Below, one piece after another: positions 2,992 through 35,430 of a stretch of 64,000 nucleotides of DNA (within the stretch, counting starts at the first letter, position 1; the number at the start of each line of letters is the position of its first letter). The notes beneath the pieces are model-generated. The model saw nothing but the letters and a program-made list of their open reading frames with translations. It ran no database searches and was not told where the DNA came from. Position numbers and translations under genes: made by a program. Source of the DNA: Rugalucina vietnamica (lineage: Eukaryota; Mollusca; Bivalvia; Lucinida; Lucinidae); NCBI GenBank assembly GCA_964017185.1, contig OZ024874.1, positions 34,572,721 to 34,636,720 on the forward strand, in the 5' to 3' direction.

Positions 2992-3491
2992 AATGACAAC
3001 ACGTAAACACTAAGCTTTGCATTTGCAACCGTTAAAACCGTGTCAACACGTTAAAACTAAGCGTTGTAGTTAAAACCGTTAATGGCAACACGTAAACACT
3101 AAGCTTTGCATTTGCAACCGTTAAAACAGTTGCAAACGTTAGTGTCAACATGTCAGCACTAACCGTTACAGTTGCAACCTTTAATGGCAACACGTTAACA
3201 TTAAGCGTTAGTGGCAACTCGTTAAAGCTAAGCGTTGCAGTTGCAAACGTTAGTGTCAACATGTAAGCACTAACCGTTACAGTTGCAACCTTTAATGGCA
3301 ACACGTTAACATTAAGCGTTAGTGGCAACGCGTTAAAGCTAAGCGTTGCAGTTGCAAACGTTAGTGTCAACATGTAAGCACTAACCGTTGCAGTTGCAAC
3401 CTTTAAAGGCAACACGTTAACATTAAGCATTGCAGTTGCAAGCGTTAGTGGCAACACGTTAAAACTAAGCGTTGCAGTTACAACCGTTAGT

Positions 3492-3533
3492 GTCAACATT
3501 ACAGTAAGTGTAGCATTTGTTTACGTTAATTTC
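3492..3533 (+). repeat. Anchor monomer (diverged unit, once per block), type copy
   Basis: A diverged monomer with core 'acagtaagtgtagcattt' followed by 'gtttacgttaatttc' occurs once per block. Other copies begin near 4392, 5370, 6088, 6980, 10060, 11651, 12629, 14255, 15155, 16133, 16851, 17743, 20822, 22413, 23396, 25017, 25917, 26895, 27613, 28505, 31584, 33175, 34133, 34848, 35634, 36526, 37433, 38600, 39649, 40540, 41518, 42236, 43030, 44008, 44726, 46605, 47310, 48987, 49422, 50013, 51654, 52638, 53521, 54226, 55199, 56006, 57412, 58349, 60939, 61995 and 62959. There are about 60 in total with less regular ones. Three forms exist: cattacag, cattataacag and cattataacataacag; some have gctta for gttta. 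Confidence 0.85.
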
Positions 3534-6500
3534 AACACGTTAACACGTTGCAACCGTTTATGTCAACATGTTAACACTTAGCATTGCAGTTGCAACCGTT
3601 AGTGTCAACATGTTTACACTAAGCGTTGCAGTTGCAACCGTTAATGACAACACGTTAACACTAAGCATTGCGGTTACAATGCGTTAAAACTAAGCGTTGT
3701 AGTTAAAACCGTTAATGACAACACGTAAACACTAAGCTTTGCATTTGCAACCATTAAAACCATGTCAACACGTTAAAACTAAGCGTTGTAGTTATAACTG
3801 TTAATTGCAACACGTTAGCACTAAGCAATGGATTTGCAACCGTTAATACCGTGGCAACATGTTAAAACTAAGCGTTGCAGTTAAAACCGTTAATGACAAC
3901 ACGTAAACACTAAGCTTTGCATTTGCAACCGTTAAAACCGTGTCAACACGTTAAAACTAAGCGTTGTAGTTAAAACCGTTAATGGCAACACGTAAACACT
4001 AAGCTTTGCATTTGCAACCGTTGAAACAGTTGCAAACGTTAGTGTCAACATGTCAGCACTAACCGTTACAGTTGCAACCTTTAATGGCAACACGTTAACA
4101 TTAGGCGTTAGTGGCAACTCGTTAAAGCTAAGCGTTGCAGTTGCAAACGTTAGTGTCAACATGTAAGCACTAACCGTTACAGTTGCAACCTTTAATGGCA
4201 ACACGTTAACATTAAGCGTTAGTGGCAACACGTTAAAGCTAAGCGTTGCAGTTGCAAACGTTAGTGTCAACATGTAAGCACTAACCGTTGCAGTTGCAAC
4301 CTTTAAAGGCAACACGTTAACATTAAGCATTGCAGTTGCAAGCGTTAGTGGCAACACGTAAAAACTAAGCGTTGCAGTTACAACCGTTAGTGTCAACATT
4401 ACAGTAAGTGTAGCATTTGTTTACGTTAATTTCAACACGTTAACACGTTGCAACCGTTTATGTCAACATGTTAACACTTAGCATTGCAGTTGCAACCGTT
4501 AGTGTCAACATGTTTACACTAAGCGTTGCAGTTGCAACCGTTAATGACAACACGTTAACACTAAGCATTGCGGTTACAATGCGTTAAAACTAAGCGTTGT
4601 AGTTAAAACCGTTAATGACAACACGTAAACACTAAGCTTTGCATTTGCAACCATTAAAACCATGTCAACACGTTAAAACTAAGCGTTGTAGTTATAACCG
4701 TTAATTGCAACACGTTAGCAGTAACTTAGCACTAAGCATTGGATTTGCAACCGTTAATACCGCGGCAACACGTTAAAACTAAGCGTTGCAGTTGCAACCG
4801 TTAATGACAACACGTAAACACTAAGCTTTACATTTGCAACCATTAAAACCATGTCAACACGTTAAAACTAAGCGTTGTAGTTATAACTGTTAATTGCAAC
4901 ACGTTAGCACTAAGCATTGCATTTGCAGCCGTTAATACCGTGGCAACATGTTAAAACTAAGCGTTGCAGTTAAAACCGTTAATGACAACACGTAAACACT
5001 AAGCTTTGCATTTGCAACCGTTAAAACCGTGTCAACACGTTGAAACTAAGCGTTGTAGTTAAAACCGTTAATGGCAACACGTAAACACTAAGCTTTGCAT
5101 TTGCAACCGTTAAAACAGTTGCAAACGTTAGTGTCAACATGTAAGCACTAACCGTTACAGTTGCAACCTTTAATGGCAACACGTTAACATTAAGCGTTAG
5201 TGGCAACACGTTAAAGCTAAGCGTTGCAGTTGCAAACGTTAGTGTCAACATGTAAGCACTAACCGTTGCAGTTGCAACCTTTAAAGGCAACACGTTAACA
5301 TTAAGCATTGCAGTTGCAAGCGTTAGTGGCAACACGTTAAAACTAAGCGTTGCAGTTACAACCGTTAGTGTCAACATTATAACATAACAGTAAGTGTAGC
5401 ATTTGCTTACGTTAATTTCAACACGTTAACACGTTGCAACCGTTTATGTCAACACTTAGCATTGCAGTTGCAACCGTTAGTGTCAACATGTTTACACTAA
5501 GCGTTGCAGTTGCAACCGTTAATGACAACACGTAAACACTAAGCTTTGCATTTGCAACCATTAAAACCATGTCAACACGTTAAAACTAAGCGTTGTAGTT
5601 ATAACCGTTAATTGCAACACGTTAGCACTAAGCATTGGATTTGCAACCGTTAATACCTCGGCAACATGTTAAAACTAAGCGTTGCAGTTAAAACCGTTAA
5701 TGACAACACGTAAACACTAAGCTTTACATTTGCAACCATTAAAACCGTGTCAACACGTTAAAACTAAGCGTTGTAGTTAAATCCGTTAATGGCAACACGT
5801 AAACACTAAGCTTTGCATTTGCAACCGTTAAAACAGTTGCAAACGTTACTGTCAACATGTAAGCACTAACCGTTACAGTTGCAACCTTTAATGGCAAGAC
5901 GTTAACATTAAGCGTTAGTGGCAACACGTTCAAGCTAAGCGTTGCAGTTGCAAACGTTAGTGTCAACATGTAAGCATTAACCGTTGCAGTTGCAACCTTT
6001 AAAGGCAACACGTTAACATTAAGCATTGCAGCTGCAAGCGTTAGTGGCAACACGTTAAAACTAAGCGTTGCAGTTACAACCGTTAGTGTCAACATTACAG
6101 TTAGTGTAGCATTTGTTTACGTTAATTTCAACACGTTGCAACCGTTTATGTCAACATGTTAACACTTAGCATTGCAGTTGCAACCGTTAGTGTCAACATG
6201 TTTACACTAAGCGTTGCAGTTGCAAGCGTTAATGACAACACGTTAACACTAAGCATTGCGGTTACAATGCGTTAAAACTAAGCGTTGTAGTTAAAACCGT
6301 TAATGACAACACGTAAACACTAAGCTTTGCATTTGCAACCATTAAAACCATGTCAACACGTTAAAACTAAGCGTTGTAGTTATAACTGTTAATTGCAACA
6401 CGTTAGCACTAAGCAATGGATTTGCAACCGTTAATACCGTGGCAACATGTTAAAACTAAGCGTTGCAGTTAAAACCGTTAATGACAACACGTAAACACTA

Positions 6501-7781
6501 AGCTTTGCATTTGCAACCGTTAAAACCGTGTCAACACGTTAAAACTAAGCGTTGTAGTTAAAACCGTTAATGGCAACACGTAAACACTAAGCTTTGCATT
6601 TGCAACCGTTAAAACAGTTGCAAACGTTAGTGTCAACATGTCAGCACTAACCGTTACAGTTGCAACCTTTAATGGCAACACGTTAACATTAAGCGTTAGT
6701 GGCAACTCGTTAAAGCTAAGCGTTGCAGTTGCAAACGTTAGTGTCAACATGTAAGCACTAACCGTTACAGTTGCAACCTTTAATGGCAACACGTTAACAT
6801 TAAGCGTTAGTGGCAACGCGTTAAAGCTAAGCGTTGCAGTTGCAAACGTTAGTGTCAACATGTAAGCACTAACCGTTGCAGTTGCAACCTTTAAAGGCAA
6901 CACGTTAACATTAAGCATTGCAGTTGCAAGCGTTAGTGGCAACACGTTAAAACTAAGCGTTGCAGTTACAACCGTTAGTGTCAACATTACAGTAAGTGTA
7001 GCATTTGTTTACGTTAATTTCAACACGTTAACACGTTGCAACCGTTTATGTCAACATGTTAACACTTAGCATTGCAGTTGCAACCGTTAGTGTCAACATG
7101 TTTACACTAAGCGTTGCAGTTGCAACCGTTAATGACAACACGTTAACACTAAGCATTGCGGTCACAATGCGTTCAAACTAAGCGTTGTAGTTAAAACCGT
7201 TAATGACAACACGTTAACACTAAGCTTTGCATTTGCAACCATTAAAACCATGTCAACACGTTAAAACTAAGCGTTGTAGTTATAACTGTTAATTGCAACA
7301 CGTTAGCACTAAGCAATGGATTTGCAACCGTTAATACCGTGGCAACATGTTAAAACTAAGCGTTGCAGTTAAAACCGTTAATGACAACACGTAAACACTA
7401 AGCTTTGCATTTGCAACCGTTAAAACCGTGTCAACACGTTAAAACTAAGCGTTGTAGTTAAAACCGTTAATGGCAACACGTAAACACTAAGCTTTGCATT
7501 TGCAACCGTTAAAACAGTTGCAAACGTTAGTGTCAACATGTAATCACTAACCGTTACAGTTGCAACCTTTAATGGCAACACGTTAACATTAAGCGTTAGT
7601 GGCAACACGTTAAAGCTAAGCGTTGCAGTTGCAAACGTTAGTGTCAACATGTAAGCACTAACCGTTGCAGTTGCAACCTTTAAAGGCAACACGTTAACAT
7701 TAAGCATTGCAGTTGCAAGCGTTAGTGGCAACACGTTAAAACTAAGCGTTGCAGTTACAACCGTTAGTGTCATAGAGGATA

Positions 7782-7930
7782 TTTGCTTTTTTTCGGTGAA
7801 TACCAAATATATTTCACCGAGTGAGTTGAAAACATCAAAATTTTCACGAGTGCGCAGCACGAGTGAAAATTTTTATGTTTTCAACACTCGAGGTGAAATA
7901 TATTTGGTATTCACCGAAAAAAAAAGCAAA
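7782..7930. repeat. Fold-back palindrome, ~72-bp arms (copy 1)
   Basis: Left arm 7782-7853 and right arm 7857-7930 are near-perfect reverse complements. They run from tttgctttttttcggtgaat at the left end to gtattcaccgaaaaa...gcaaa at the right. The arms carry a few mismatches near the centre (cacgag against cactcg after complementing), and the loop is only 3 nt. It resembles palindromic fold-back/MITE-type repeats common in invertebrate genomes. The short peptides readable from it, such as EIYLVFTEKK, are by-products. Confidence 0.85.
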
Positions 7931-8203
7931 TTTTCTTTTTATTTTATACAATACACGGGCATTTTCCTATTTACAAGGCAGGCGGTAAAAATGCAAAAAC
8001 CAAAAATTTTTGAAAACACAAATAATTTTGGTACCACATTGTTCCTTACGTTCTAACTAAGAAAATGAATACCCACACTTTATGTTTTCGTTCATAAATA
8101 ACGGAGTTATAGGCATTTGAATTTCTGAAGTGAGACACATTTAATGACGTCAAGTAAATGGAAACGTCAGAAGTAATCCAAAATCTACAGTGACGATATA
8201 GGC
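7931..8203. other. AT-rich spacer within the insert (copy 1)
   Basis: No gene or known element is seen; it contains one TGACGTCA word at 8145-8152. The same sequence follows the palindrome in the other two insert copies. Confidence 0.5.
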
Positions 8204-8271
8204 TGATATCAGTCACTAGTGACTTTTGATATCAGTGAGATTTGATATCAGTGAAATTTCATATCAATGAA
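8204..8271 (+). repeat. gatatcagtga short tandem array (copy 1)
   Basis: Four imperfect repeats of 'ttgatatcagtga' lie in 68 bp, the first joined to the palindrome agtcactagtgact. Each repeat contains the GATATC palindrome, except that the last reads catatcaatga. Confidence 0.75.
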
Positions 8272-8342
8272 AATACCAATTTTATCAAGTTTTGATATAC
8301 ATAGGTCTTCCACACTAAATACAGTGAAAGAAATGTTTTTGT

Positions 8343-8414
8343 ATGTTTTTCAGCGTACTTCAAGCATTTATGTTTTTCAGCGTACTTCAAGCATTTTTCA
8401 GCGTACTTCAAGCA
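8343..8414 (+). repeat. 27-bp tandem array, 2.7 copies (copy 1)
   Basis: Two exact 27-bp copies at 8343-8369 and 8370-8396 are followed by an 18-bp partial copy (8397-8414). Each contains 'tttttcagcgtacttcaagc'. The repeated 'MFFSVLQAF' frame over this array is an artefact of 27 being a multiple of three. Confidence 0.9.
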
Positions 8415-9010
8415 AGATGGCCCCGACATAAAGCTTTCATTTTAGTTGGTTGGGGCCGGAGCTTCTTGTCTGTTGCTTGGCCCACCGGGGTCCAACTGGT
8501 GTTTTTCTTTTGCTCCGAAGTTAGTAGGTTATTCGGCGCCCAGGGATCTCCATCGTCGGGCAGCTTACTCAGTCTGTGAGTCCTGGTTTTTGATTCATCA
8601 GGATGTTTATCATGATTTATTTGTTTGTTCTTGATGATTCATTTACTAGTTAGAGATTCACCACGAGGACCGAATAACTAACTAAATGTTATGAACCACT
8701 GCAGAAGCTGAGGGTGAGGTTATGGCCATGTAAAACCGGTTTAAGCCCGCCAGTAACTTTGTGTTACTGATCGTTCCAAGTCGATACTTCTGTGGTGGTT
8801 CTTTTCGTTTTATGTCTTGGTGTTTGAAAAATTTTTTGTGCTGTTGGCGCCTTATGTATGTTTTCATATTTTTAGTTAAGTTAAGGTAACTGAGTGGCCA
8901 CCTATTGGGAAAATAGCTGCTCATTCGGCTTACGATATGTTTCATGGTATAAGTACCTGATTGTTGGTTTGGTTTTTTCCCGCCTCGGTTTTTGGAGTGG
9001 GAATCTTTTT
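8415..9010 (+). mobile_element. SINE-like segment (copy 1), tentative
   Basis: This more GC-balanced ~600 bp has blocks such as 'ggcccaccggggtccaactg' and 'gtaaaaccggtttaagccc', with a T-rich 3' part. From memory these resemble interspersed repeats seen in mollusc sequences, but I cannot confirm a family. No convincing pol III A/B boxes or tail repeat are visible. Open frames at 8343-8579, 8446-8634 and 8682-8945 match nothing I know. Confidence 0.35.
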
Positions 9011-12000
9011 CTGATTGCGCCTTTGCTTACGTTAATTTCAACACGTTAACACGTTGCAACCGTTTATGTCAACATGTTAACACTTAGCATTGCAGTTGCA
9101 ACCGTTAGTGTCAACATGTTTACACTAAGCGTTGCAGTTGCAACCGTTATTAATGACAACACGTTAACACTAAGCATTTCGGTTAGAATGCGTTAAAACT
9201 AAGCGTTGTCGTTAAAACCGTTAATGACAACACGTAAACACTAAGCTTTGCATTTGCAACCATTAAAACCATGTCAACACCTTAAAACTAAGCGTTGTAG
9301 TTATAACCGTTTATTGCAACACGTTAGCACTAATCATTGGATTTGCAACCGTTAATACCGTGGCAACACGTTAAAACTAAGCGTTGCAGTTAAAACCGTT
9401 AATGACAACACGTAAACACTAAGCTTTGCATTTGCAACCAATAAAACCATGTCAACATGTTAAAACTAAGCGTTGTAGTTATAACTGTTAATTGCAACAC
9501 GTTAGCACTAAGCAATGGATTTGCAACCGTTAAAACTTAGCGTTGCAGTTAAAACCGTTAATGACAACACGTAAACACTAAGCTTTGCATTTGCAACCGT
9601 TAAAACCGTGTCAACACGTTAAAACTAAGCGTTGTAGTTAAAACCGTTAATGGCAACACGTAAACACTAAGCTTTGCATTTGCAACCGTTAAAACAGTTG
9701 CAAACGTTAGTGTCAACATGTAAGCACTAACCGTTACAGTTGCAACCTTTAATGGCGACACGTTAACATTAAGCGTTAGTGGCAACACGTTAAAGCTAAG
9801 CGTTGCAGTTGCAAACGTTAGTGTCAACATGTAAGCACTAACCGTTACAGTTGCAACCTTTAATGGCAACACGTTAACATTAAGCGTTAGTGGCAACACG
9901 TTAAAGCTAAGCGTTGCAGTTACAAACGTTAGTGTCAACATGTAAGCACTAACCGTTGCAGTTGCAACCTTTAAAGACAACACGTTAACATTAAGCATTG
10001 CAGTTGCAAGCGTTAGTGGCAACACGTTAAAACTAAGCGTTGCAGTTACAACCGTTAGTGTCAACATTATAACATAACAGTAAGTGTAGCATTTGCTTAC
10101 GTTAATTTCAACACGTTAACACGTTGCAACCGTTTATGTCAACACTTAGCATTGCAGTTGCAACCGTTAGTGTCAACATGTTTACACTAAGCGTTGCAGT
10201 TGCAACCGTTAATGACAACACGTAAACACTAAGCTTTGCATTTGCAACCATTAAAACCATGTCAACACGTTAAAACTAAGTGTTGTAGTTATAACCGTTA
10301 ATTGCAACACGTTAGCACTAAGCATTGGATTTGCAACCGTTAATACCTCGGCAACATGTTAAAACTAAGCGTTGCAGTTAAAACCGTTAATGACAACACG
10401 TAAACACTAAGCTTTACATTTGCAACCATTAAAACCGTGTCAACACGTTAAAACTAAGCGTTGTAGTTAAAACCGTTAATGGCAACACGTAAACACTAAG
10501 CTTTGCATTTGCAACCGTTAAAACAGTTGCAAACGTTACTGTCAACATGTAAGCACTAACCGTTACAGTTGCAACCTTTAATGGCAACACGTTAACATTA
10601 AGCGTTAGTGGCAACACGTTAAAGCTAAGCGTTGCAGTTGCAAACGTTAGTGTCAACATGTAAGCATTAACCGTTGCAGTTGCAACCTTTAAAGGCAACA
10701 CGTTAACATTAAGCATTGCAGTTGCAACACGTTAAAACTAAGCGTTGCAGTTACAACCGTTAGTGTTACAGTAAGTGTAGCATTTGTTTACGTTAATTTC
10801 AACACGTTGCAACCGTTTATGTCAACATGTTAACACTTAGCATTGCAGTTGCAACCGTTAGTGTCAACATGTTTACACTAAGCGTTGCAGTTGCAACCGT
10901 TAATGACAACACGTTAACACTAAGCATTGCGGTTACAATGCGTTAAAACTAAGCGTTGTAGTTAAAACCGTTAATGACAACACGTAAACACTAAGCTTTG
11001 CATTTGCAACCGTTAAAACCATGTCAACACGTTAAAACTAAGCGTTGTAGTTATAACTGTTAATTGCAACACGTTAGCACTAAGCAATGGATTTGCAACC
11101 GTTAATACCGTGGCAACATGTTGAAACTAAGCGTTGCAGTTAAAACCGTTAATGACAACACGTAAACACTAAGCTTTGCATTTGCAACCGTTAAAACCGT
11201 GTCAACACGTTAAAACTAAGCGTTGTAGTTAAAACCGTTAATGGCAACACGTAAACACTAAGCTTTGCATTTGCAACCGTTAAAACAGTTGCAAACGTTA
11301 GTGTCAACATGTCAGCACTAACCGTTACAGTTGCAACCTTTAATGGCAACACGTTAACATTAAGCGTTAGTGGCAACTCGTTAAAGCTAAGCGTTGCAGT
11401 TGCAAACGTTAGTGTCAACATGTAAGCACTAACCGTTACAGTTGCAACCTTTAATGGCAACACGTTAACATTAAGCGTTAGTGGCAACACGTTAAAGCTA
11501 AGCGTTGCAGTTGCAAACGTTAGTGTCAACATGTAAGCACTAACCGTTGCAGTTGCAACCTTTAAAGGCAACACGTTAACATTAAGCATTGCAGTTGCAA
11601 GCGTTAGTGGCAACACGTTAAAACTAAGCGTTGCAGTTACAACCGTTAGTGTCAACATTACAGTAAGTGTAGCATTTGTTTACGTTAATTTCAACACGTT
11701 AACACGTTGCAACCGTTTATGTCAACATGTTAACACTTAGCATTGCAGTTGCAACCGTTAGTGTCAACATGTTTACACTAAGCGTTGCAGTTGCAACCGT
11801 TAATGACAACACGTTAACACTAAGCATTGCGGTTACAATGCGTTAAAACTAAGCGTTGTAGTTAAAACCGTTAATGACAACACGTAAACACTAAGCTTTG
11901 CATTTGCAACCATTAAAACCATGTCAACACGTTAAAACTAAGCGTTGTAGTTATAACCGTTAATTGCAACACGTTAGCAGTAACTTAGCACTAAGCATTG

Positions 12001-15000
12001 GATTTGCAACCGTTAATACCGCGGCAACACGTTAAAACTAAGCGTTGCAGTTGCAACCGTTAATGACAACACGTAAATACTAAGCTTTACATTTGCAACC
12101 ATTTAAACCATGTCAACACATTAAAACTAAGCGTTGTAGTTATAACCGTTAATTGCAACACGTTAGCACTAAGCATTGCATTTGCAACCGTTAATACCGT
12201 GGCAACATGTTAAAACTAAGCGTTGCAGTTAAAACCGTTAATGACAACACGTAAACACTAAGCTTTGCATTTGCAACCGTTAAAACCGTGTCAACACGTT
12301 GAAACTAAGCGTTGTAGTTAAAACCGTTAATGGCAACACGTAAACACTAAGCTTTGCATTTGCAACCGTTAAAACAGTTGCAAAAGTTAGTTTCAACATG
12401 TAAGCACTAACCGTTACAGTTGCAACCTTTAATGGCAACACGTTAACATTAAGCGTTAGTGGCAACACGTTAAAGCTAAGCGTTGCAGTTGCAAACGTTA
12501 GTGTCAACATGTAAGCACTAACCGTTGCAGTTGCAACCTTTAAAGGCAACACGTTAACATTAAGCATTGCAGTTGCAAGCGTTAGTGGCAAAACGTTAAA
12601 ACTAAGCGTTGCAGTTACAACCGTTAGTGTCAACATTATAACATAACAGTAAGTGTAGCATTTGCTTACGTTAATTTCAACACGTTAACACGTTGCAACC
12701 GTTTATCTCAACACTTAGCATTGCAGTTGCAACCGTTAGTGTCAACATCTTTACACTAAGCGTTGCAGTTGCAACCGTTAATGACAACACGTAAACACTA
12801 AGCTTTGCATTTGCAACCATTAAAACCATGTCAACACGTTAAAACTAAGCGTTGTAGTTATAACCGTTAATTGCAACACGTTAGCACTAAGCATTGGATT
12901 TGCAACCGTTAATACCTCGGCAACATGTTAAAACTAAGCGTTGCAGTTAAAACCGTTAATGACAACACGTAAACACTAAGCTTTACATTTGCAACCATTA
13001 AAACCGTGTCAACACGTTAAAACTAAACGTTGTAGTTAAAACCGTTAATGGCAACACGTAAACACTAAGCTTTGCATTTGCAACCGTTAAAACAGTTGCA
13101 AACGTTACTGTCAACATGTAAGCACTAACCGTTACAGTTGCAACCTTTAATGGCAAGACGTTAACATTAAGCGTTAGTGGCAACACGTTAAAGCTAAGCG
13201 TTGCAGTTGCAAACGTTAGTGTCAACATGTAAGCATTAACCGTTGCAGTTGCAAACCGTTGCAGTTGCAACCTTTAAAGGCAACACGTTAACATTAAGCA
13301 TTGCAGTTGCAAGCGTTAGTGGCAACACGTTAAAACTAAGCGTTGCAGTTACAACCGTTAGTGTCAACATTACAGTAAGTGTAGCATTTGTTTACGTTAA
13401 TTTCAACACGTTGCAACCGTTTATGTCAACATGTTAACACTTAGTATTGCAGTTGCAACCGTTAGTGTCAACATGTTTACACTAAGCGTTGCAGTTGCAA
13501 CCGTTAATGACAACACGTTAACACTAAGCATTGCGGTTACAATGCGTTAAAACTAAGCGTTGTAGTTAAAACCGTTAATGACAACACGTAAACACTAAGC
13601 TTTGCATTTGCAACCATTAAAACCATGTCAACACGTTAAAACTAAGCGTTGTAGTTATAACTGTTAATTGCAACACGTTAGCACTAAGCAATGGATTTGC
13701 AACCGTTAATACCGTGGCAACATGTTAAAACTAAGCGTTGCAGTTAAAACCGTTAATGACAACACGTAAACACTAAGCTTTGCATTTGCAACCGTTAAAA
13801 CCGTGTCAACACGTTAAAACTAAGCGTTGTAGTTAAAACCGTTAATGGCAACACGTAAACACTAAGCTTTGCATTTGCAACCGTTAAAACAGTTGCAAAC
13901 GTTAGTGTCAACATGTCAGCACTAACCGTTACAGTTGCAACCTTTAATGGCAACACGTTAACATTAAGCGTTAGTGGCAACTCGTTAAAGCTAAGCGTTG
14001 CAGTTGCAAACGTTAGTGTCAACATGTAAGCACTAACCGTTACAGTTGCAACCTTTAATGGCAACACGTTAACATTAAGCGTTAGTGGCAACGCGTTAAA
14101 GCTAAGCGTTGCAGTTGCAAACGTTAGTGTCAACATGTAAGCACTAACCGTTGCAGTTGCAACCTTTAAAGGCAACACGTTAACATTAAGCATTGCAGTT
14201 GCAAGCGTTAGTGGCAACACGTTAAAACTAAGCGTTGCAGTTACAACCGTTAGTGTCAACATTACAGTAAGTGTAGCATTTGTTTACGTTAATTTCAACA
14301 CGTTAACACGTTGCAACCGTTTATGTCAACATGTTAACACTTAGCATTGCAGTTGCAACCGTTAGTGTCAACATGTTTACACTAAGCGTTGCAGTTGCAA
14401 CCGTTAATGACAACACGTTAACACTAAGCATTGCGGTTACAATGCGTTAAAACTAAGCGTTGTAGTTAAAACCGTTAATGACAACACGTAAACACTAAGC
14501 TTTGCATTTGCAACCATTAAAACCATGTCAACACGTTAAAACTAAGCGTTGTAGTTATAACTGTTAATTGCAACACGTTAGCACTAAGCAATGGATTTGC
14601 AACCGTTAATACCGTGGCAACATGTTAAAACTAAGCGTTGCAGTTAAAACCGTTAATGACAACACGTAAACACTAAGCTTTGCATTTGCAACCGTTAAAA
14701 CCGTGTCAACACGTTAAAACTAAGCGTTGTAGTTAAAACCGTTAATGGCAACACGTAAACACTAAGCTTTGCATTTGCAACCGTTGAAACAGTTGCAAAC
14801 GTTAGTTTCAACATGTCAGCACTAACCGTTACAGTTGCAACCTTTAATGGCAACACGTTAACATTAGGCGTTAGTGGCAACTCGTTAAAGCTAAGCGTTG
14901 CAGTTGCAAACGTTAGTGTCAACATGTAAGCACTAACCGTTACAGTTGCAACCTTTAATGGCAACACGTTAACATTAAGCGTTAGTGGCAACACGTTAAA

Positions 15001-18000: not shown

Positions 18001-18544
18001 ACCATTAAAACCATGTCAACACGTTAAAACTAAGCGTTGTAGTTATAACTGTTAATTGCAACACGTTAGCACTAAGCAATGGATTTGCAACCGTTAATAC
18101 CGTGGCAACATGTTAAAACTAAGCGTTGCAGTTAAAACCGTTAATGACAACACGTAAACACTAAGCTTTGCATTTGCAACCGTTAAAACCGTGTCAACAC
18201 GTTAAAACTAAGCGTTGTAGTTAAAACCGTTAATGGCAACACGTAAACACTAAGCTTTGCATTTGCAACCGTTAAAACAGTTGCAAACGTTAGTGTCAAC
18301 ATGTAATCACTAACCGTTACAGTTGCAACCTTTAATGGCAACACGTTAACATTAAGCGTTAGTGGCAACACGTTAAAGCTAAGCGTTGCAGTTGCAAACG
18401 TTAGTGTCAACATGTAAGCACTAACCGTTGCAGTTGCAACCTTTAAAGGCAACACGTTAACATTAAGCATTGCAGTTGCAAGCGTTAGTGGCAACACGTT
18501 AAAACTAAGCGTTGCAGTTACAACCGTTAGTGTCATAGAGGATA

Positions 18545-19033: not shown

Positions 19034-19104
19034 AATACCAATTTTATCAAGTTTTGATATACATAGGTCTTCCACACTAAATACAGTGAAAGAAATGTTT
19101 TTGT

Positions 19105-22700: not shown

Positions 22701-25700
22701 TAAGCGTTGTAGTTATAACCGTTAATTGCAACACGTTAGCAGTAACTTAGCACTAAGCATTGGATTTGCAACCGTTAATACCGCGGCAACACGTTAAAAC
22801 TAAGCGTTGCAGTTGCAACCGTTAATGACAACACGTAAACACTAAGCTTTACATTTGCAACCATTTAAACCATGTCAACACATTAAAACTAAGCGTTGTA
22901 GTTATAACCGTTAATTGCAACACGTTAGCACTAAGCATTGCATTTGCAACCGTTAATACCGTGGCAACATGTTAAAACTAAGCGTTGCAGTTAAAACCGT
23001 TAATGACAACACGTAAACACTAAGCTTTGCATTTGCAACCGTTAAAACCGTGTCAACACGTTTAGTTGAAACTAAGCGTTGTAGTTAAAACCGTTAATGG
23101 CAACACGTAAACACTAAGCTTTGCATTTGCAACCGTTAAAACAGTTGCAAAAGTTAGTTTCAACATGTAAGCACTAACCGTTACAGTTGCAACCTTTAAT
23201 GGCAACACGTTAACATTAAGCGTTAGTGGCAACACGTTAAAGCTAAGCGTTGCAGTTGCAAACGTTAGTGTCAACATGTAAGCACTAACCGTTGCAGTTG
23301 CAACCTTTAAAGGCAACACGTTAACATTAAGCATTGCAGTTGCAAGCGTTAGTGGCAAAACGTTAAAACTAAGCGTTGCAGTTACAACCGTTAGTGTCAA
23401 CATTATAACAGTAAGTGTAGCATTTGCTTACGTTAATTTCAACACGTTAACACGTTGCAACCGTTTATGTCAACACTTAGCATTGCAGTTGCAACCGTTA
23501 GTGTCAACATCTTTACACTAAGCGTTGCAGTTGCAACCGTTAATGACAACACGTAAACACTAAGCTTTGCATTTGCAACCATTAAAACCATGTCAACACG
23601 TTAAAACTAAGCGTTGTAGTTATAACCGTTAATTGCAACACGTTAGCACTAAGCATTGGATTTGCAACCGTTAATACCTCGGCAACATGTTAAAACTAAG
23701 CGTTGCAGTTAAAACCGTTAATGACAACACGTAAACACTAAGCTTTACATTTGCAACCATTAAAACCGTGTCAACACGTTAAAACTAAACGTTGTAGTTA
23801 AAACCGTTAATGGCAACACGTAAACACTAAGCTTTGCATTTGCAACCGTTAAAACAGTTGCAAACGTTACTGTCAACATGTAAGCACTAACCGTTACAGT
23901 TGCAACCTTTAATGGCAAGACGTTAACATTAAGCGTTAGTGGCAACACGTTAAAGCTAAGCGTTGCAGTTGCAAACGTTAGTGTCAACATGTAAGCATTA
24001 ACCGTTGCAGTTGCAAACCGTTGCAGTTGCAACCTTTAAAGGCAACACGTTAACATTAAGCATTGCAGTTGCAAGCGTTAGTGGCAACACGTTAAAACTA
24101 AGCGTTGCAGTTACAACCGTTAGTGTCAACATTACAGTAAGTGTAGCATTTGTTTACGTTAATTTCAACACGTTGCAACCGTTTATGTCAACATGTTAAC
24201 ACTTAGTATTGCAGTTGCAACCGTTAGTGTCAACATGTTTACACTAAGCGTTGCAGTTGCAACCGTTAATGACAACACGTTAACACTAAGCATTGCGGTT
24301 ACAATGCGTTAAAACTAAGCGTTGTAGTTAAAACCGTTAATGACAACACGTAAACACTAAGCTTTGCATTTGCAACCATTAAAACCATGTCAACACGTTA
24401 AAACTAAGCGTTGTAGTTATAACTGTTAATTGCAACACGTTAGCACTAAGCAATGGATTTGCAACCGTTAATACCGTGGCAACATGTTAAAACTAAGCGT
24501 TGCAGTTAAAACCGTTAATGACAACACGTAAACACTAAGCTTTGCATTTGCAACCGTTAAAACCGTGTCAACACGTTAAAACTAAGCGTTGTAGTTAAAA
24601 CCGTTAATGGCAACACGTAAACACTAAGCTTTGCATTTGCAACCGTTAAAACAGTTGCAAACGTTAGTGTCAACATGTCAGCACTAACCGTTACAGTTGC
24701 AACCTTTAATGGCAACACGTTAACATTAAGCGTTAGTGGCAACTCGTTAAAGCTAAGCGTTGCAGTTGCAAACGTTAGTGTCAACATGTAAGCACTAACC
24801 GTTACAGTTGCAACCTTTAATGGCAACACGTTAACATTAAGCGTTAGTGGCAACGCGTTAAAGCTAAGCGTTGCAGTTGCAAACGTTAGTGTCAACATGT
24901 AAGCACTAACCGTTGCAGTTGCAACCTTTAAAGGCAACACGTTAACATTAAGCATTGCAGTTGCAAGCGTTAGTGGCAACACGTTAAAACTAAGCGTTGC
25001 AGTTACAACCGTTAGTGTCAACATTACAGTAAGTGTAGCATTTGTTTACGTTAATTTCAACACGTTAACACGTTGCAACCGTTTATGTCAACATGTTAAC
25101 ACTTAGCATTGCAGTTGCAACCGTTAGTGTCAACATGTTTACACTAAGCGTTGCAGTTGCAACCGTTAATGACAACACGTTAACACTAAGCATTGCGGTT
25201 ACAATGCGTTAAAACTAAGCGTTGTAGTTAAAACCGTTAATGACAACACGTAAACACTAAGCTTTGCATTTGCAACCATTAAAACCATGTCAACACGTTA
25301 AAACTAAGCGTTGTAGTTATAACTGTTAATTGCAACACGTTAGCACTAAGCAATGGATTTGCAACCGTTAATACCGTGGCAACATGTTAAAACTAAGCGT
25401 TGCAGTTAAAACCGTTAATGACAACACGTAAACACTAAGCTTTGCATTTGCAACCGTTAAAACCGTGTCAACACGTTAAAACTAAGCGTTGTAGTTAAAA
25501 CCGTTAATGGCAACACGTAAACACTAAGCTTTGCATTTGCAACCGTTGAAACAGTTGCAAACGTTAGTTTCAACATGTCAGCACTAACCGTTACAGTTGC
25601 AACCTTTAATGGCAACACGTTAACATTAGGCGTTAGTGGCAACTCGTTAAAGCTAAGCGTTGCAGTTGCAAACGTTAGTGTCAACATGTAAGCACTAACC

Positions 25701-28700
25701 GTTACAGTTGCAACCTTTAATGGCAACACGTTAACATTAAGCGTTAGTGGCAACACGTTAAAGCTAAGCGTTGCAGTTGCAAACGTTAGTGTCAACATGT
25801 AAGCACTAACCGTTGCAGTTGCAACCTTTAAAGGCAACACGTTAACATTAAGCATTGCAGTTGCAAGCGTTAGTGGCAACACGTTAAAACTAAGCGTTGC
25901 AGTTACAACCGTTAGTGTCAACATTACAGTAAGTGTAGCATTTGTTTACGTTAATTTCAACACGTTAACACGTTGCAACCGTTTATGTCAACATGTTAAC
26001 ACTTAGCATTGCAGTTGCAACCGTTAGTGTCAACATGTTTACACTAAACGTTGCAGTTGCAACCGTTAATGACAACACGTTAACACTAAGCATTGCGGTT
26101 ACAATGCGTTAAAACTAAGCGTTGTAGTTAAAACCGTTAATGACAACACGTAAACACTAAGCTTTGCATTTGCAACCATTAAAACCATGTCAACACGTTA
26201 AAACTAAGCGTTGTAGTTATAACCGTTAATTGCAACACGTTAGCAGTAACTTAGCACTAAGCATTGGATTTGCAACCGTTAATACCGCGGCAACACGTTA
26301 AAACTAAGCGTTGCAGTTGCAACCGTTAATGACAACACGTAAACACTAAGCTTTACATTTGCAACCATTAAAACCATGTCAACACGTTAAAACTAAGCGT
26401 TGTAGTTATAACTGTTAATTGCAACACGTTAGCACTAAGCATTGCATTTGCAGCCGTTAATACCGTGGCAACATGTTAAAACTAAGCGTTGCAGTTAAAA
26501 CCGTTAATGACAACACGTAAACACTAAGCTTTGCATTTGCAACCGTTAAAACCGTGTCAACACGTTGAAACTAAGCGTTGTAGTTAAAACCGTTAATGGC
26601 AACACGTAAACACTAAGCTTTGCATTTGCAACCGTTAAAACAGTTGCAAACGTTAGTGTCAACATGTAAGCACTAACCGTTACAGTTGCAACCTTTAATG
26701 GCAACACGTTAACATTAAGCGTTAGTGGCAACACGTTAAAGCTAAGCGTTGCAGTTGCAAACGTTAGTGTCAACATGTAAGCACTAACCGTTGCAGTTGC
26801 AACCTTTAAAGGCAACACGTTAACATTAAGCATTGCAGTTGCAAGCGTTAGTGGCAACACGTTAAAACTAAGCGTTGCAGTTACAACCGTTAGTGTCAAC
26901 ATTATAACATAACAGTAAGTGTAGCATTTGCTTACGTTAATTTCAACACGTTAACACGTTGCAACCGTTTATGTCAACACTTAGCATTGCAGTTGCAACC
27001 GTTAGTGTCAACATGTTTACACTAAGCGTTGCAGTTGCAACCGTTAATGACAACACGTAAACACTAAGCTTTGCATTTGCAACCATTAAAACCATGTCAA
27101 CACGTTAAAACTAAGCGTTGTAGTTATAACCGTTAATTGCAACACGTTAGCACTAAGCATTGGATTTGCAACCGTTAATACCTCGGCAACATGTTAAAAC
27201 TAAGCGTTGCAGTTAAAACCGTTAATGACAACACGTAAACACTAAGCTTTACATTTGCAACCATTAAAACCGTGTCAACACGTTAAAACTAAGCGTTGTA
27301 GTTAAATCCGTTAATGGCAACACGTAAACACTAAGCTTTGCATTTGCAACCGTTAAAACAGTTGCAAACGTTACTGTCAACATGTAAGCACTAACCGTTA
27401 CAGTTGCAACCTTTAATGGCAAGACGTTAACATTAAGCGTTAGTGGCAACACGTTAAAGCTAAGCGTTGCAGTTGCAAACGTTAGTGTCAACATGTAAGC
27501 ATTAACCGTTGCAGTTGCAACCTTTAAAGGCAACACGTTAACATTAAGCATTGCAGCTGCAAGCGTTAGTGGCAACACGTTAAAACTAAGCGTTGCAGTT
27601 ACAACCGTTAGTGTCAACATTACAGTTAGTGTAGCATTTGTTTACGTTAATTTCAACACGTTGCAACCGTTTATGTCAACATGTTAACACTTAGCATTGC
27701 AGTTGCAACCGTTAGTGTCAACATGTTTACACTAAGCGTTGCAGTTGCAAGCGTTAATGACAACACGTTAACACTAAGCATTGCGGTTACAATGCGTTAA
27801 AACTAAGCGTTGTAGTTAAAACCGTTAATGACAACACGTAAACACTAAGCTTTGCATTTGCAACCATTAAAACCATGTCAACACGTTAAAACTAAGCGTT
27901 GTAGTTATAACTGTTAATTGCAACACGTTAGCACTAAGCAATGGATTTGCAACCGTTAATACCGTGGCAACATGTTAAAACTAAGCGTTGCAGTTAAAAC
28001 CGTTAATGACAACACGTAAACACTAAGCTTTGCATTTGCAACCGTTAAAACCGTGTCAACACGTTAAAACTAAGCGTTGTAGTTAAAACCGTTAATGGCA
28101 ACACGTAAACACTAAGCTTTGCATTTGCAACCGTTAAAACAGTTGCAAACGTTAGTGTCAACATGTCAGCACTAACCGTTACAGTTGCAACCTTTAATGG
28201 CAACACGTTAACATTAAGCGTTAGTGGCAACTCGTTAAAGCTAAGCGTTGCAGTTGCAAACGTTAGTGTCAACATGTAAGCACTAACCGTTACAGTTGCA
28301 ACCTTTAATGGCAACACGTTAACATTAAGCGTTAGTGGCAACGCGTTAAAGCTAAGCGTTGCAGTTGCAAACGTTAGTGTCAACATGTAAGCACTAACCG
28401 TTGCAGTTGCAACCTTTAAAGGCAACACGTTAACATTAAGCATTGCAGTTGCAAGCGTTAGTGGCAACACGTTCAAACTAAGCGTTGCAGTTACAACCGT
28501 TAGTGTCAACATTACAGTAAGTGTAGCATTTGTTTACGTTAATTTCAACACGTTAACACGTTGCAACCGTTTATGTCAACATGTTAACACTTAGCATTGC
28601 AGTTGCAACCGTTAGTGTCAACATGTTTACACTAAGCGTTGCAGTTGCAACCGTTAATGACAACACGTTAACACTAAGCATTGCGGTTACAATGCGTTCA

Positions 28701-29306
28701 AACTAAGCGTTGTAGTTAAAACCGTTAATGACAACACGTTAACACTAAGCTTTGCATTTGCAACCATTAAAACCATGTCAACACGTTAAAACTAAGCGTT
28801 GTAGTTATAACTGTTAATTGCAACACGTTAGCACTAAGCAATGGATTTGCAACCGTTAATACCGTGGCAACATGTTAAAACTAAGCGTTGCAGTTAAAAC
28901 CGTTAATGACAACACGTAAACACTAAGCTTTGCATTTGCAACCGTTAAAACCGTGTCAACACGTTAAAACTAAGCGTTGTAGTTAAAACCGTTAATGGCA
29001 ACACGTAAACACTAAGCTTTGCATTTGCAACCGTTAAAACAGTTGCAAACGTTAGTGTCAACATGTAATCACTAACCGTTACAGTTGCAACCTTTAATGG
29101 CAACACGTTAACATTAAGCGTTAGTGGCAACACGTTAAAGCTAAGCGTTGCAGTTGCAAACGTTAGTGTCAACATGTAAGCACTAACCGTTGCAGTTGCA
29201 ACCTTTAAAGGCAACACGTTAACATTAAGCATTGCAGTTGCAAGCGTTAGTGGCAACACGTTAAAACTAAGCGTTGCAGTTACAACCGTTAGTGTCATAG
29301 AGGATA

Positions 29307-29454
29307 TTTGCTTTTTTTCGGTGAATACCAAATATATTTCACCGAGTGAGTTGAAAACATCAAAATTTTCACGAGTGCGCAGCACGAGTGAAAATTTTTA
29401 TGTTTTCAACACTCGAGGTGAAATATATTTGGTATTCACCGAAAAAAAAGCAAA
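29307..29454. repeat. Fold-back palindrome (copy 3)
   Basis: Same as at 18,545-18,692. Confidence 0.85.
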
Positions 29455-29727
29455 TTTTCTTTTTATTTTATACAATACACGGGCATTTTCCTATTTACAA
29501 GGCAGGCGGTAAAAATGCAAAAACCAAAAATTTTTGAAAACACAAATAATTTTGGTACCACATTGTTCCTTACGTTCTAACTAAGAAAATGAATACCCAC
29601 ACTTTATGTTTTCGTTCATAAATAACGGAGTTATAGGCATTTGAATTTCTGAAGTGAGACACATTTAATGACGTCAAGTAAATGGAAACGTCAGAAGTAA
29701 TCCAAAATCTACAGTGACGATATAGGC

Positions 29728-29795
29728 TGATATCAGTCACTAGTGACTTTTGATATCAGTGAGATTTGATATCAGTGAAATTTCATATCAATGAA
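29728..29795 (+). repeat. gatatcagtga short tandem array (copy 3)
   Basis: Identical by eye to 8204-8271. Confidence 0.75.
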
Positions 29796-29866
29796 AATAC
29801 CAATTTTATCAAGTTTTGATATACATAGGTCTTCCACACTAAATACAGTGAAAGAAATGTTTTTGT

Positions 29867-29938
29867 ATGTTTTTCAGCGTACTTCAAGCATTTATGTTTT
29901 TCAGCGTACTTCAAGCATTTTTCAGCGTACTTCAAGCA
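29867..29938 (+). repeat. 27-bp tandem array (copy 3)
   Basis: Identical by eye to 8343-8414. Confidence 0.9.
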
Positions 29939-30534
29939 AGATGGCCCCGACATAAAGCTTTCATTTTAGTTGGTTGGGGCCGGAGCTTCTTGTCTGTTGC
30001 TTGGCCCACCGGGGTCCAACTGGTGTTTTTCTTTTGCTCCGAAGTTAGTAGGTTATTCGGCGCCCAGGGATCTCCATCGTCGGGCAGCTTACTCAGTCTG
30101 TGAGTCCTGGTTTTTGATTCATCAGGATGTTTATCATGATTTATTTGTTTGTTCTTGATGATTCATTTACTAGTTAGAGATTCACCACGAGGACCGAATA
30201 ACTAACTAAATGTTATGAACCACTGCAGAAGCTGAGGGTGAGGTTATGGCCATGTAAAACCGGTTTAAGCCCGCCAGTAACTTTGTGTTACTGATCGTTC
30301 CAAGTCGATACTTCTGTGGTGGTTCTTTTCGTTTTATGTCTTGGTGTTTGAAAATTTTTTTGTGCTGTTGGCGCCTTATGTATGTTTTCATATTTTTAGT
30401 TAAGTTAAGGTAACTGAGTGGCCACCTATTGGGAAAATAGCTGCTCATTCGGCTTACGATATGTTTCATGGTATAAGTACCTGATTGTTGGTTTGGTTTT
30501 TTCCCGCCTCGGTTTTTGGAGTGGGAATCTTTTT
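29939..30534 (+). mobile_element. SINE-like segment (copy 3), tentative
   Basis: Same as copy 2. Confidence 0.35.
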
Positions 30535-33500
30535 CTGATTGCGCCTTTGCTTACGTTAATTTCAACACGTTAACACGTTGCAACCGTTTATGTCAACATG
30601 TTAACACTTAGCATTGCAGTTGCAACCGTTAGTGTCAACATGTTTACACTAAGCGTTGCAGTTGCAACCGTTATTAATGACAACACGTTAACACTAAGCA
30701 TTTCGGTTAGAATGCGTTAAAACTAAGCGTTGTCGTTAAAACCGTTAATGACAACACGTAAACACTAAGCTTTGCATTTGCAACCATTAAAACCATGTCA
30801 ACACCTTAAAACTAAGCGTTGTAGTTATAACCGTTTATTGCAACACGTTAGCACTAATCATTGGATTTGCAACCGTTAATACCGTGGCAACACGTTAAAA
30901 CTAAGCGTTGCAGTTAAAACCGTTAATGACAACACGTAAACACTAAGCTTTGCATTTGCAACCAATAAAACCATGTCAACACGTTAAAACTAAGCGTTGT
31001 AGTTATAACTGTTAATTGCAACACGTTAGCACTAAGCAATGGATTTGCAACCGTTAAAACTTAGCGTTGCAGTTAAAACCGTTAATGACAACACGTAAAC
31101 ACTAAGCTTTGCATTTGCAACCGTTAAAACCGTGTCAACACGTTAAAACTAAGCGTTGTAGTTAAAACCGTTAATGGCAACACGTAAACACTAAGCTTTG
31201 CATTTGCAACCGTTAAAACAGTTGCAAACGTTAGTGTCAACATGTAAGCACTAACCGTTACAGTTGCAACCTTTAATGGCGACACGTTAACATTAAGCGT
31301 TAGTGGCAACACGTTAAAGCTAAGCGTTGCAGTTGCAAACGTTAGTGTCAACATGTAAGCACTAACCGTTACAGTTGCAACCTTTAATGGCAACACGTTA
31401 ACATTAAGCGTTAGTGGCAACACGTTAAAGCTAAGCGTTGCAGTTACAAACGTTAGTGTCAACATGTAAGCACTAACCGTTGCAGTTGCAACCTTTAAAG
31501 ACAACACGTTAACATTAAACATTGCAGTTGCAAGCGTTAGTGGCAACACGTTAAAACTAAGCGTTGCAGTTACAACCGTTAGTGTCAACATTATAACATA
31601 ACAGTAAGTGTAGCATTTGCTTACGTTAATTTCAACACGTTAACACGTTGCAACCGTTTATGTCAACACTTAGCATTGCAGTTGCAACCGTTAGTGTCAA
31701 CATGTTTACACTAAGCGTTGCAGTTGCAACCGTTAATGACAACACGTAAACACTAAGCTTTGCATTTGCAACCATTAAAACCATGTCAACACGTTAAAAC
31801 TAAGTGTTGTAGTTATAACCGTTAATTGCAACACGTTAGCACTAAGCATTGGATTTGCAACCGTTAATACCTCGGCAACATGTTAAAACTAAGCGTTGCA
31901 GTTAAAACCGTTAATGACAACACGTAAACACTAAGCTTTACATTTGCAACCATTAAAACCGTGTCAACACGTTAAAACTAAGCGTTGTAGTTAAAACCGT
32001 TAATGGCAACACGTAAACACTAAGCTTTGCATTTGCAACCGTTAAAACAGTTGCAAACGTTACTGTCAACATGTAAGCACTAACCGTTACAGTTGCAACC
32101 TTTAATGGCAACACGTTAACATTAAGCGTTAGTGGCAACACGTTAAAGCTAAGCGTTGCAGTTGCAAACGTTAGTGTCAACATGTAAGCATTAACCGTTG
32201 CAGTTGCAACCTTTAAAGGCAACACGTTAACATTAAGCATTGCAGTTGCAACACGTTAAAACTAAGCGTTGCAGTTACAACCGTTAGTGTTACAGTAAGT
32301 GTAGCATTTGTTTACGTTAATTTCAACACGTTGCAACCGTTTATGTCAACATGTTAACACTTAGCATTGCAGTTGCAACCGTTAGTGTCAACATGTTTAC
32401 ACTAAGCGTTGCAGTTGCAACCGTTAATGACAACACGTTAACACTAAGCATTGCGGTTACAATGCGTTAAAACTAAGCGTTGTAGTTAAAACCGTTAATG
32501 ACAACACGTAAACACTAAGCTTTGCATTTGCAACCGTTAAAACCATGTCAACACGTTAAAACTAAGCGTTGTAGTTATAACTGTTAATTGCAACACGTTA
32601 GCACTAAGCAATGGATTTGCAACCGTTAATACCGTGGCAACATGTTAAAACTAAGCGTTGCAGTTAAAACCGTTAATGACAACACGTAAACACTAAGCTT
32701 TGCATTTGCAACCGTTAAAACCGTGTCAACACGTTAAAACTAAGCGTTGTAGTTAAAACCGTTAATGGCAACACGTAAACACTAAGCTTTGCATTTGCAA
32801 CCGTTAAAACAGTTGCAAACGTTAGTGTCAACATGTCAGCACTAACCGTTACAGTTGCAACCTTTAATGGCAACACGTTAACATTAAGCGTTAGTGGCAA
32901 CTCGTTAAAGCTAAGCGTTGCAGTTGCAAACGTTAGTGTCAACATGTAAGCACTAACCGTTACAGTTGCAACCTTTAATGGCAACACGTTAACATTAAGC
33001 GTTAGTGGCAACACGTTAAAGCTAAGCGTTGCAGTTGCAAACGTTAGTGTCAACATGTAAGCACTAACCGTTGCAGTTGCAACCTTTAAAGGCAACACGT
33101 TAACATTAAGCATTGCAGTTGCAAGCGTTAGTGGCAACACGTTAAAACTAAGCGTTGCAGTTACAACCGTTAGTGTCAACATTACAGTAAGTGTAGCATT
33201 TGTTTACGTTAATTTCAACACGTTAACACGTTGCAACCGTTTATGTCAACATGTTAACACTTAGCATTGCAGTTGCAACCGTTAGTGTCAACATGTTTAC
33301 ACTAAGCGTTGCAGTTGCAACCGTTAATGACAACACGTTAACACTAAGCATTGCGGTTACAATGCGTTAAAACTAAGCGTTGTAGTTAAAACCGTTAATG
33401 ACAACACGTAAACACTAAGCTTTGCATTTGCAACCATTAAAACCATGTCAACACGTTAAAACTAAGCGTTGTAGTTATAACCGTTAATTGCAACACGTTA

Positions 33501-35430
33501 GCAGTAACTTAGCACTAAGCATTGGATTTGCAACCGTTAATACCGCGGCAACACGTTAAAACTAAGCGTTGCAGTTGCAACCGTTAATGACAACACGTAA
33601 ACACTAAGCTTTACATTTGCAACCATTAAAACCATGTCAACACGTTAAAACTAAGCGTTGTAGTTATAACCGTTAATTGCAACACGTTAGCACTAAGCAT
33701 TGCATTTGCAACCGTTAATACCGTGGCAACATGTTAAAACTAAGCGTTGCAGTTAAAACCGTTAATGACAACACGTAAACACTAAGCTTTGCATTTGCAA
33801 CCGTTAAACTAAGCGTTGTAGTTAAAACCGTTAATGGCAACACGTAAACACTAAGCTTTGCATTTGCAACCGTTAAAACAGTTGCAAACGTTAGTGTCAA
33901 CATGTAAGCACTAACCGTTACAGTTGCAACCTTTAATGGCAACACGTTAACATTAAGCGTTAGTGGCAACACGTTAAAGGTAAGCGTTGCAGATGCAAAC
34001 GTTAGTGTCAACATGTAAGCACTAACCGTTGCAGTTGCAACCTTTAAAGGCAACACGTTAACATTAAGCATTGCAGTTGCAAGCGTTAGTGGCAACGCGT
34101 TAAAACTAAGCGTTGCAGTTACAACCGATAGTGTCAACATTATAACATAACAGTAAGTGTAGTTGCTTACGTTAATTTCAACACGTTAACACGTTGCAAC
34201 CGTTTATGTCAACACTTAGCATTGCAGTTGCAACCGTTAGTGTCAACATGTTTACACTAAGCGTTGCAGTTGCAACCGTTAATGACAGCACGTAAACACT
34301 AAGCTTCGCATTTGCAACCATTAAAACCATGTCAACACGTTAAAACTATGCGTTGTAGTTATAACCGTTAATTGCAACACGTTAGCACTAAGCATTGGAT
34401 TTGCAACCGTTAATACCTCGGCAACATGTTAAAACTAAGCGTTGCAGTTAAAACCGTTAATGACAACACGTAAACACTAAGCTTTACATTTGCAACCATT
34501 AAAACCGTGTCAACACGTTAAAACTAAGCGTTGTAGTTAAAACCGTTAATGGCAACACGTAAACACTAAGCTTTGCATTTGCAACCGTTAAAACAGTTGC
34601 AAACGTTACTGTCAACATGTAAGCACTAACCGTTACAGTTGCAACCTTTAATGGCAAGACGTTAACATTAAGCGTTAGTGGCAACACGTTAAAGCTAAGC
34701 GTTGCAGTTGCAAACGTTAGTGTCAACATGTAAGCATTAACCGTTGCAGTTGCAACCTTTAAAGGCAACACGTTAACATTAAGCATTGCAGTTGCAAGCG
34801 TTAGTGGCAACACGTTAAAACTAAGCGTTGCAGTTACAACCGTTAGTGTCAACATTACAGTAAGTGTAGCATTTGTTTACGTTAATTTCAACACGTTGCA
34901 ACCGTTTATGTCAACATGTTAACACTTAGCATTGCAGTTGCAACCGTTAGTGTCAACATGTTTACACTAAGCGTTGCAGTTGCAACCGTTAATGACAACA
35001 CGTTAACACTAAGCATTGCGGTTACAATGCGTTAAAACTAAGCGTTGTAGTTAAAACCGTTAATGACAACAAGTAAACACTAAGCTTTGCATTTGCAACC
35101 ATTAAAACCATGTCAACACGTTAAAACTAAGCGTTGTAGTTATAACTGTTAATTGCAACACGTTAGCACTAAGCAATGGATTTGCAACCGTTAATACCGT
35201 GGCAACATGTTAAAACTAAGCGTTGCAGTTAAAACCGTTAATGACAACACGTAAACACTAAGCTTTGCATTTGCAACCGTTAAAACCGTGTCAAAACGTT
35301 AAAACTAAGCGTTGTAGTTAAAACCGTTAATGGCAACACGTAAACACTAAGCTTTGCATTTTCAACCGTTAAAACAGTTGCAAACGTTACTGTCAACATG
35401 TAAGCACTAACCGTTACAGTTGCAACCTTT

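Follow-up and report, generated by a model that had tools for sequence, protein, structure and literature searches.

Introduction

Tandem repeats with units as large as the one studied here are already known, and the closest described systems are found in primates and in Tribolium. On orangutan chromosome 13, an alpha-satellite 59mer higher-order repeat (HOR) exists in eight copies, variants included, which lie about 0.1% apart while their monomers lie about 22% apart (PMC11276891). In human, chromosome 8 carries 12-kb tandem repeats; megasatellites that contain interspersed elements are presumed to have expanded by unequal crossing over, and one array (of ~6-kb Acro units) shows an inversion of unit orientation (PMC2588610). 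The satellite arrays of Tribolium (T. madens) switch strand, mostly as two opposed subarrays, and are putatively (peri)centromeric (PMC13081366), while in primate arrays the most identical copies are found at the centre (PMC11062924). Here, we describe a 10.76-kb HOR in a stretch of 64,000 nucleotides of the lucinid bivalve Rugalucina vietnamica (hereafter the window, contig C6:34572721-34636720, from an assembly of 1.09 Gb in 47 contigs), where a 42-bp-class satellite is repeated in units of ~237 pieces at the very edge of a much larger array.

By its defining features, this repeat is an HOR: in the assembly it runs head to tail and uninterrupted in more than the minimum of two copies (2.85), its unit consists of monomers that differ from one another, and whole units are far more alike than their parts. 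It shares with the orangutan 59mer a long multi-monomer unit (about 10 kb for the latter if each monomer measures 171 bp, by our own arithmetic), but differs from it, as far as alpha satellite can be compared by description, in its 42-bp monomer, its intermediate block levels and its non-satellite insert (PMC11276891). With the large tandem repeats of human it has large tandem units in common, whereas the 12-kb repeats described there carry a gene and the unit studied here consists of a short satellite inside a larger array of that same satellite (PMC2588610). A strand-switching array is shared with the macro-dyad satellites of Tribolium; symmetries of up to 75 kb and conserved inversion sites are described in the latter, whereas here ~117 kb on the plus strand face ~258 kb on the minus strand, with one main switch in the part covered (PMC13081366). 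Unlike what is described for primate arrays (PMC11062924), the young amplification touches the array edge here; since very young duplicates also lie inside the C6 array, this does not amount to a simple reversed gradient.

Results

On contig C6, the sequence covered comprised 34552721-34816720 (264 kb) and 34936721-34956720 (20 kb), and copy number and copy order are given throughout as assembled. The first 2,989 bases of the window are not satellite, and its remaining 61 kb are a 42-bp-class satellite which continues past the right end; the window forms the left edge of a satellite array of ~375 kb (34575710 to ~34950560), located mid-contig, at 0.48 of the 72.05 Mb of C6. A sequence-only reading of the window had proposed a 10,762-bp HOR in 2.85 copies, equivalent points recurring at 10,762-10,763 bp, and both autocorrelation and self-BLAST bear this out. 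The unit of 10,762/10,763 bp extends in tandem from window position 2990, which is also the end of the non-satellite flank, to between 33,603 and 33,627, so that the limits first proposed (2992 and 33,620) were correct within a few bases. The parts of the repeat and its continuation are as follows.

2990..13752, plus strand: copy 1, 10,763 bp, delimited by autocorrelation, self-BLAST and alignment
13753..24514, plus strand: copy 2, 10,762 bp, with private substitutions at 15898 and 20528 and a 5-bp insertion at 23060-23064 relative to copy 1
24515..33627, plus strand: copy 3, partial, ~9.1 kb, ending between 33603 and 33627
33603..33644, no strand: right junction, where the unit gives way to another paralogous block
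33628..64000, plus strand: satellite continuation beyond the repeat, whose blocks are of the same kinds but differently ordered and, on average, more distant from their closest paralogue

Autocorrelation of bases 1-34,000 at lags 1-29,999 indeed gave lag 10,762 as the strongest (73% identity), followed by 21,525 and 21,524; over the whole window, at lags 1-39,999, lag 10,762 came second only to lag 42. Ungapped self-BLAST matched 12643-23046 to 23405-33808 (99.952%), 2990-7924 to 13753-18687 at lag 10,763 (99.858%), and 7918-12300 to 18680-23062 at lag 10,762 (99.863%), the lag shifting from 10,763 to 10,762 because the length of a homopolymer differs at 7917. At the right junction, almost all paralogous sites agree with copy 3 (132 of 133 at 33,628 and 132 of 135 at 33,644), and none has the base of copies 1 and 2; the best match of 33600-35300 in the window is 26342-28065 (97.8%), and an indel of ~20 bp lies near 33,805, just past the end of copy 3.

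The unit is built in several levels. Monomer pieces measure 42, 47, 27 and 34 bp, among other lengths, with matches of ~62-91% reported by TRF for periods of 42, 89 and 111 (among 150 of its 422 rows), and each unit holds ~237 aligned pieces, the insert not counted. These 42-bp-class monomers form blocks, mostly of 0.7-1.1 kb, which we marked by a 37-bp anchor occurring 66 times in the window at seven mismatches or fewer, and 11 blocks together with one insert make up the 10.76-kb unit. The 11-member series of block spacings that had been noticed at first sight does recur from unit to unit (900, 1089, 718, 781, 900, 2180, 829, 762, 1089, 718 and 797, the spacing of 2180 containing the insert); its two deviations are explained by indels, namely 1094/713 instead of 1089/718 in copy 2, due to two 5-bp indels, and 2179 instead of 2180 in copies 2 and 3, due to the homopolymer. 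Block identity, calculated on substitutions only and with inserts cut out, reached 0.9991 at a lag of 11 blocks and 0.9988 at lag 22; every other lag up to 21 gave 0.972-0.990 (0.973-0.989 for lags 1-10 in blocks 1-30), and blocks to the right of the repeat gave 0.970-0.982 at lags 1-22. Chance can be set aside as an explanation of the lag-11 match. When 65 blocks were clustered by substitution identity, 22 clusters were obtained at 1% and seven at 2%, and in our reading of block lengths and clusters, about three block kinds recur as trios and quartets of 2.5-3.5 kb. An older duplication is moreover found inside the repeat.

3542..7705, plus strand: older internal duplicate of 10801-14980, 4.2 kb, ~99.1-99.3% identical, at lags 7259 and 7275, spanning the boundary between copies

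The copies were compared over the 9,114 bp common to all three, copies 1 and 2 being also aligned to their ends. The near identity of copies 2 and 3 was confirmed, with two substitutions (0.02%), against 13 between copies 1 and 2 (0.14%) and 11 between copies 1 and 3 (0.12%); the homopolymer at 7917, the one length difference within this span, was left out of the site count. At 11 sites copies 2 and 3 agree against copy 1, and the only private changes besides are the two of copy 2, copy 3 having none. Using as outgroup all places of the window that match the 121-bp context of a site with 14 mismatches or fewer, the three homologous places excluded, 10 of the 11 sites could be polarised on paralogous blocks, the eleventh (8831) lying in the insert and having no paralogue. 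Four of these changes are derived in copies 2 and 3 (4044, 4523, 6949 and 9995) and six in copy 1 (4360, 5931, 7163, 9458, 11123 and 12078), with non-independent and not always unanimous outgroup counts (106 A against 13 G at 11123, 57 G against 2 T at 4044). Most of the polarised differences between copy 1 and the other two are thus changes of copy 1. On arithmetic grounds, it is not credible that these four changes arose in parallel on separate copies; copies 2 and 3 consequently share an ancestry later than copy 1, or have been homogenised. This is in line with the order of duplication deduced by the sequence-only reading, copy 1 against an ancestor of copies 2 and 3 and then a recent 2/3 split, and with its claim of derived variants absent from copy 1; the self-comparison and three-copy alignment that it had suggested as a check did show three copies, with the differences counted above. 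Past the end of copy 3, copies 1 and 2 differ by the 5-bp insertion at 23060-23064, a 5-bp slippage at 12638-12642 and one substitution (12707/23469). At this place, the slipped motif, ATAAC, is present either once or twice, depending on the block of the array, and marks block descent by slippage.

A non-satellite insert of 1,257-1,258 bp, announced beforehand as 1.25 kb, stands at the same place in all three copies, which places the repeat among megasatellites with an interspersed element.

7773..9030, no strand: insert of copy 1, 1,258 bp, non-satellite
18536..19792, no strand: insert of copy 2, 99.84% identical to that of copy 1
29298..30554, no strand: insert of copy 3, 99.84% identical to that of copy 1

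Other blocks have, by eye, ~20-28 bp of satellite in its place, and we noticed no target-site duplication. Near its left end lies a hairpin with arms of 67 bp (7787-7923, 90% complementary, 3-nt loop) and an outer pair of 18 bp; this imperfect structure of ~161 bp (window 7776-7936) resembles an element of the foldback or miniature inverted-repeat transposable element (MITE) type. The whole insert was found only in the three copies, among the C6, C1 and C2 pieces compared. Near its right end, however, 174 bases match another non-satellite island of the C6 array in inverted orientation (94.8%), and at least part of the insert is therefore a dispersed repeat. Its presence at the same place in three copies suggests that it was inserted before the first duplication.

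Duplications on a comparable scale are not limited to this locus. In the 264 kb of C6, 255 matches of at least 2.5 kb were obtained, of which the 70 longest were viewed, some of them within a neighbouring 4.3-kb repeat. The part of the C6 array covered contains many duplications at lags of 2.6-82 kb, including a tandem pair of 9.58 kb (9,583-bp lag over 13.35 kb, 99.34%), further lags of 3,401 bp, 9,137 bp, 29 kb and 43 kb, and, in its minus-strand part, a very recent copy at a lag of 16,637 bp, with a single mismatch over 4,513 bp (34790983-34795495 versus 34807620-34812132). Among 241 segments of 1 kb, 231 had a paralogue over at least 900 bp, and the best match was on the same strand in 201, with distance quartiles of 9.1, 10.8 and 29.4 kb within the 264 kb (6.9, 12.3 and 35.8 kb for the 171 segments left when the 10.76-kb repeat is removed). 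By distance from the array start, median best identity was 0.999 in three young zones, the 10.76-kb repeat itself (0-30.6 kb), 61-87 kb and 145-241 kb; it was lower between them, with 0.992 (30.6-61 kb), 0.994 (93-126 kb) and 0.987 (132-145 kb).

The satellite is found again near 0.59 of contig C1 and at 0.58-0.59 of contig C2. On C1, 94 of the first 100 exact anchors, out of 3,437 genome-wide, lie on the plus strand, and among these a lag of 20,159 occurs 13 times and one of 6,773 occurs 11 times; when the spacings were shuffled 300 times, lags above 6 kb never occurred more than five times each. In the pieces fetched, C1 showed one mismatch over 10,000 bp at lag 20,159 and C2 four mismatches over 5,000 bp at lag 20,785. 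Large recent copyings thus recur in the genome, and the 10.76-kb repeat is not a one-off; the earlier claim that exchange acts far above the scale of the monomer is supported, in view of the long lags on all three contigs, without being special to the window.

The C6 array is oriented on the plus strand up to 34692770 (117 kb) and on the minus strand thereafter (~258 kb, part of which lies outside the sequence covered, with two minus-strand matches within 34816721-34936720). Such a division into two opposed subarrays is shared with macro-dyad arrays of the Tribolium type. The switch, at 34692770-34692865, is the single main one in the sequence covered, an inverted piece of 625 bp (34676711-34677336) being an exception to the strand order, and non-satellite islands interrupt the array. 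A fixed convergent polarity on all chromosomes, plus then minus, was suggested by C6 and by the listed matches of C2, and was dropped in view of C1, where six minus matches precede the 94 plus ones.

Discussion

The origin that we favour, with somewhat better than even confidence, is a nested HOR at the edge of a mid-contig 42-bp satellite array, produced by two rounds of out-of-register homologous exchange. In the first round, sister chromatids (or homologues) paired at paralogous blocks ~10.76 kb apart would have exchanged segments and thereby duplicated the unit; in the second, at a later time, an exchange displaced by the length of one unit would have added the third copy. Two rounds are needed by the copy tree, in which copy 1 separates from copies 2 and 3 before these separate from each other, and the alignment of both sides of the right junction to paralogous satellite fits a homology-directed exchange. 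As an exact triplication would measure 32,286 bp (3 x 10,762) and ~30,620 are periodic, ~1.66 kb would have been lost later. The loss may have occurred at the left, if the event which set the flank beside the array cut ~1.66 kb off copy 1, or alternatively at the right, if the end of copy 3 was rewritten by another exchange.

Several points weigh against this scenario. A copy number of 2.85 is not an integer, unlike that of a plain tandem triplication, which means that one end was changed later or that copying was not simple crossing-over. The minus-strand part of the array contains interleaved young duplicates at lags of ~2-80 kb, which look like more than repeated crossing-over. Conversion between neighbours could give copies 2 and 3 the appearance of having split recently, and the outgroup places used for polarisation include copies of the same unit, so that their counts are not independent.

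Some of these points lead to replication-based copying, a possible though doubtful alternative, in which break-induced replication or long-tract conversion would restart on a paralogous block, lay down additional copies and stop at an arbitrary phase. A non-integer copy number and an arbitrary end phase follow naturally from such a process, which explains the odd end phase at least as well as exchange does; it would also account for the variety of lags at which young duplicates are interleaved in the other arm, and the hairpin at the left edge (see below) could have stalled or broken a replication fork. A single multi-copy burst of this kind is nevertheless difficult to reconcile with the shared derived changes, which need two events separated in time.

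An assembly artefact, in which the assembler would have inserted or dropped a copy, or joined alleles in tandem, appears unlikely. Copies 2 and 3 differ by only two substitutions over 9.1 kb, too few for their order to be settled by reads that do not reach the length of the unit, and a gap of 200 N (C6:34570719-34570918) lies 4.8 kb to the left of the array. By contrast, the array stretch C6:34575710-34816720 is free of N, 13 and 11 sites set copy 1 apart from copies 2 and 3, respectively, some substitutions are private to copy 2, two 5-bp indels distinguish the tail of copy 1 from that of copy 2, and similar repeats of other lengths exist on two other contigs. Slightly less probable still is rolling-circle amplification of a 10.76-kb extrachromosomal circle, followed by reinsertion of the concatemer into the array; as a mechanism generally known to yield tandem, non-integer copy numbers it would suit the 2.85 copies, but it predicts a single age for all of them, while 11 substitutions separate copy 1 from the other two and only two separate copies 2 and 3. 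Coding constraint, whereby the repeat would encode a repetitive minus-strand protein, as regular open frames of 118 and 155 aa on that strand might suggest, was rejected as highly improbable, given that the frames stop in every block and that variable sites by codon position (5/7/0 in nine chosen 155-aa frames, 10/13/17 in 20 chosen 118-aa frames) show no clear third-position excess.

At the left edge of the array, a perfect inverted repeat lies at the junction of flank and satellite.

2923..2991, no strand: inverted repeat at the flank/array junction, perfect, with 33-bp arms and a 3-nt spacer

When the flank was compared with 100 Markov surrogates, none of these had a stem longer than 10, against 33 at the junction, and this palindrome is the only perfect one with a stem of at least 14 and a spacer of at most 8 in the 264 kb. 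As a single case, it hints at a young breakpoint at the left edge. A comparable hairpin was found neither at the right edge of the C6 array, nor at its polarity switch, nor at the left edge of the C1 array, and the idea that hairpins are a general property of array edges was not upheld (one edge of three). Near the right edge of the C6 array, a non-satellite island (34943346-34944854) contains six perfect hairpins with stems of at least 14, one of which, of 26 bp, has no spacer. The left flank of the C6 array matched neither its right flank nor the 10 kb at the C1 edge, and bases 1-2989 of the window had no match in phage records.

A bolder and rather doubtful reading is that the 42-bp arrays are centromeres or pericentromeres, renewed mainly by the copying of segments of 7-21 kb, i.e., hundreds of monomers, with the edge included and with switches of strand. 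If this is true, satellite turnover would have a working unit far above the monomer, and the youngest copies would not necessarily be central, unlike in primates. The array provides an example of exchange units of 7-21 kb for a satellite whose monomer is very short, and of a young amplification at an array edge. Its steps of duplication remain readable in the ordered variants private to its copies, in its block types and in its inserts and junctions, so that one assembly is enough to deduce how large the exchanges were, in which order they took place and how old they are relative to one another.

As regards known elements, no exact 24- or 25-mers of the satellite were found in viral contigs or in prokaryote genome contigs, and the satellite was not found in the literature, which was queried by two 12-mers only. 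Rfam families were absent from window 1-13800 and from six further pieces (L009, L010, L013, L014, L017 and L018), and ARAGORN found no tRNA in the window. In the flank, window ~2213-2305 looks by eye like a short interspersed element (SINE) derived from a tRNA of leucine or serine type, followed by T runs, on which ARAGORN and Rfam report nothing. Another megasatellite, the 4.3-kb repeat mentioned above, lies to the left of the N gap (C6:34552721-34570718), with ~99.7% identity from unit to unit; the unit examined contains 17 copies of a 154-bp repeat and ~31 telomere-like ACCCTA hexamers. Its position beside a mid-contig array may reflect either an inner telomere-like block or a wrong join at the N gap.

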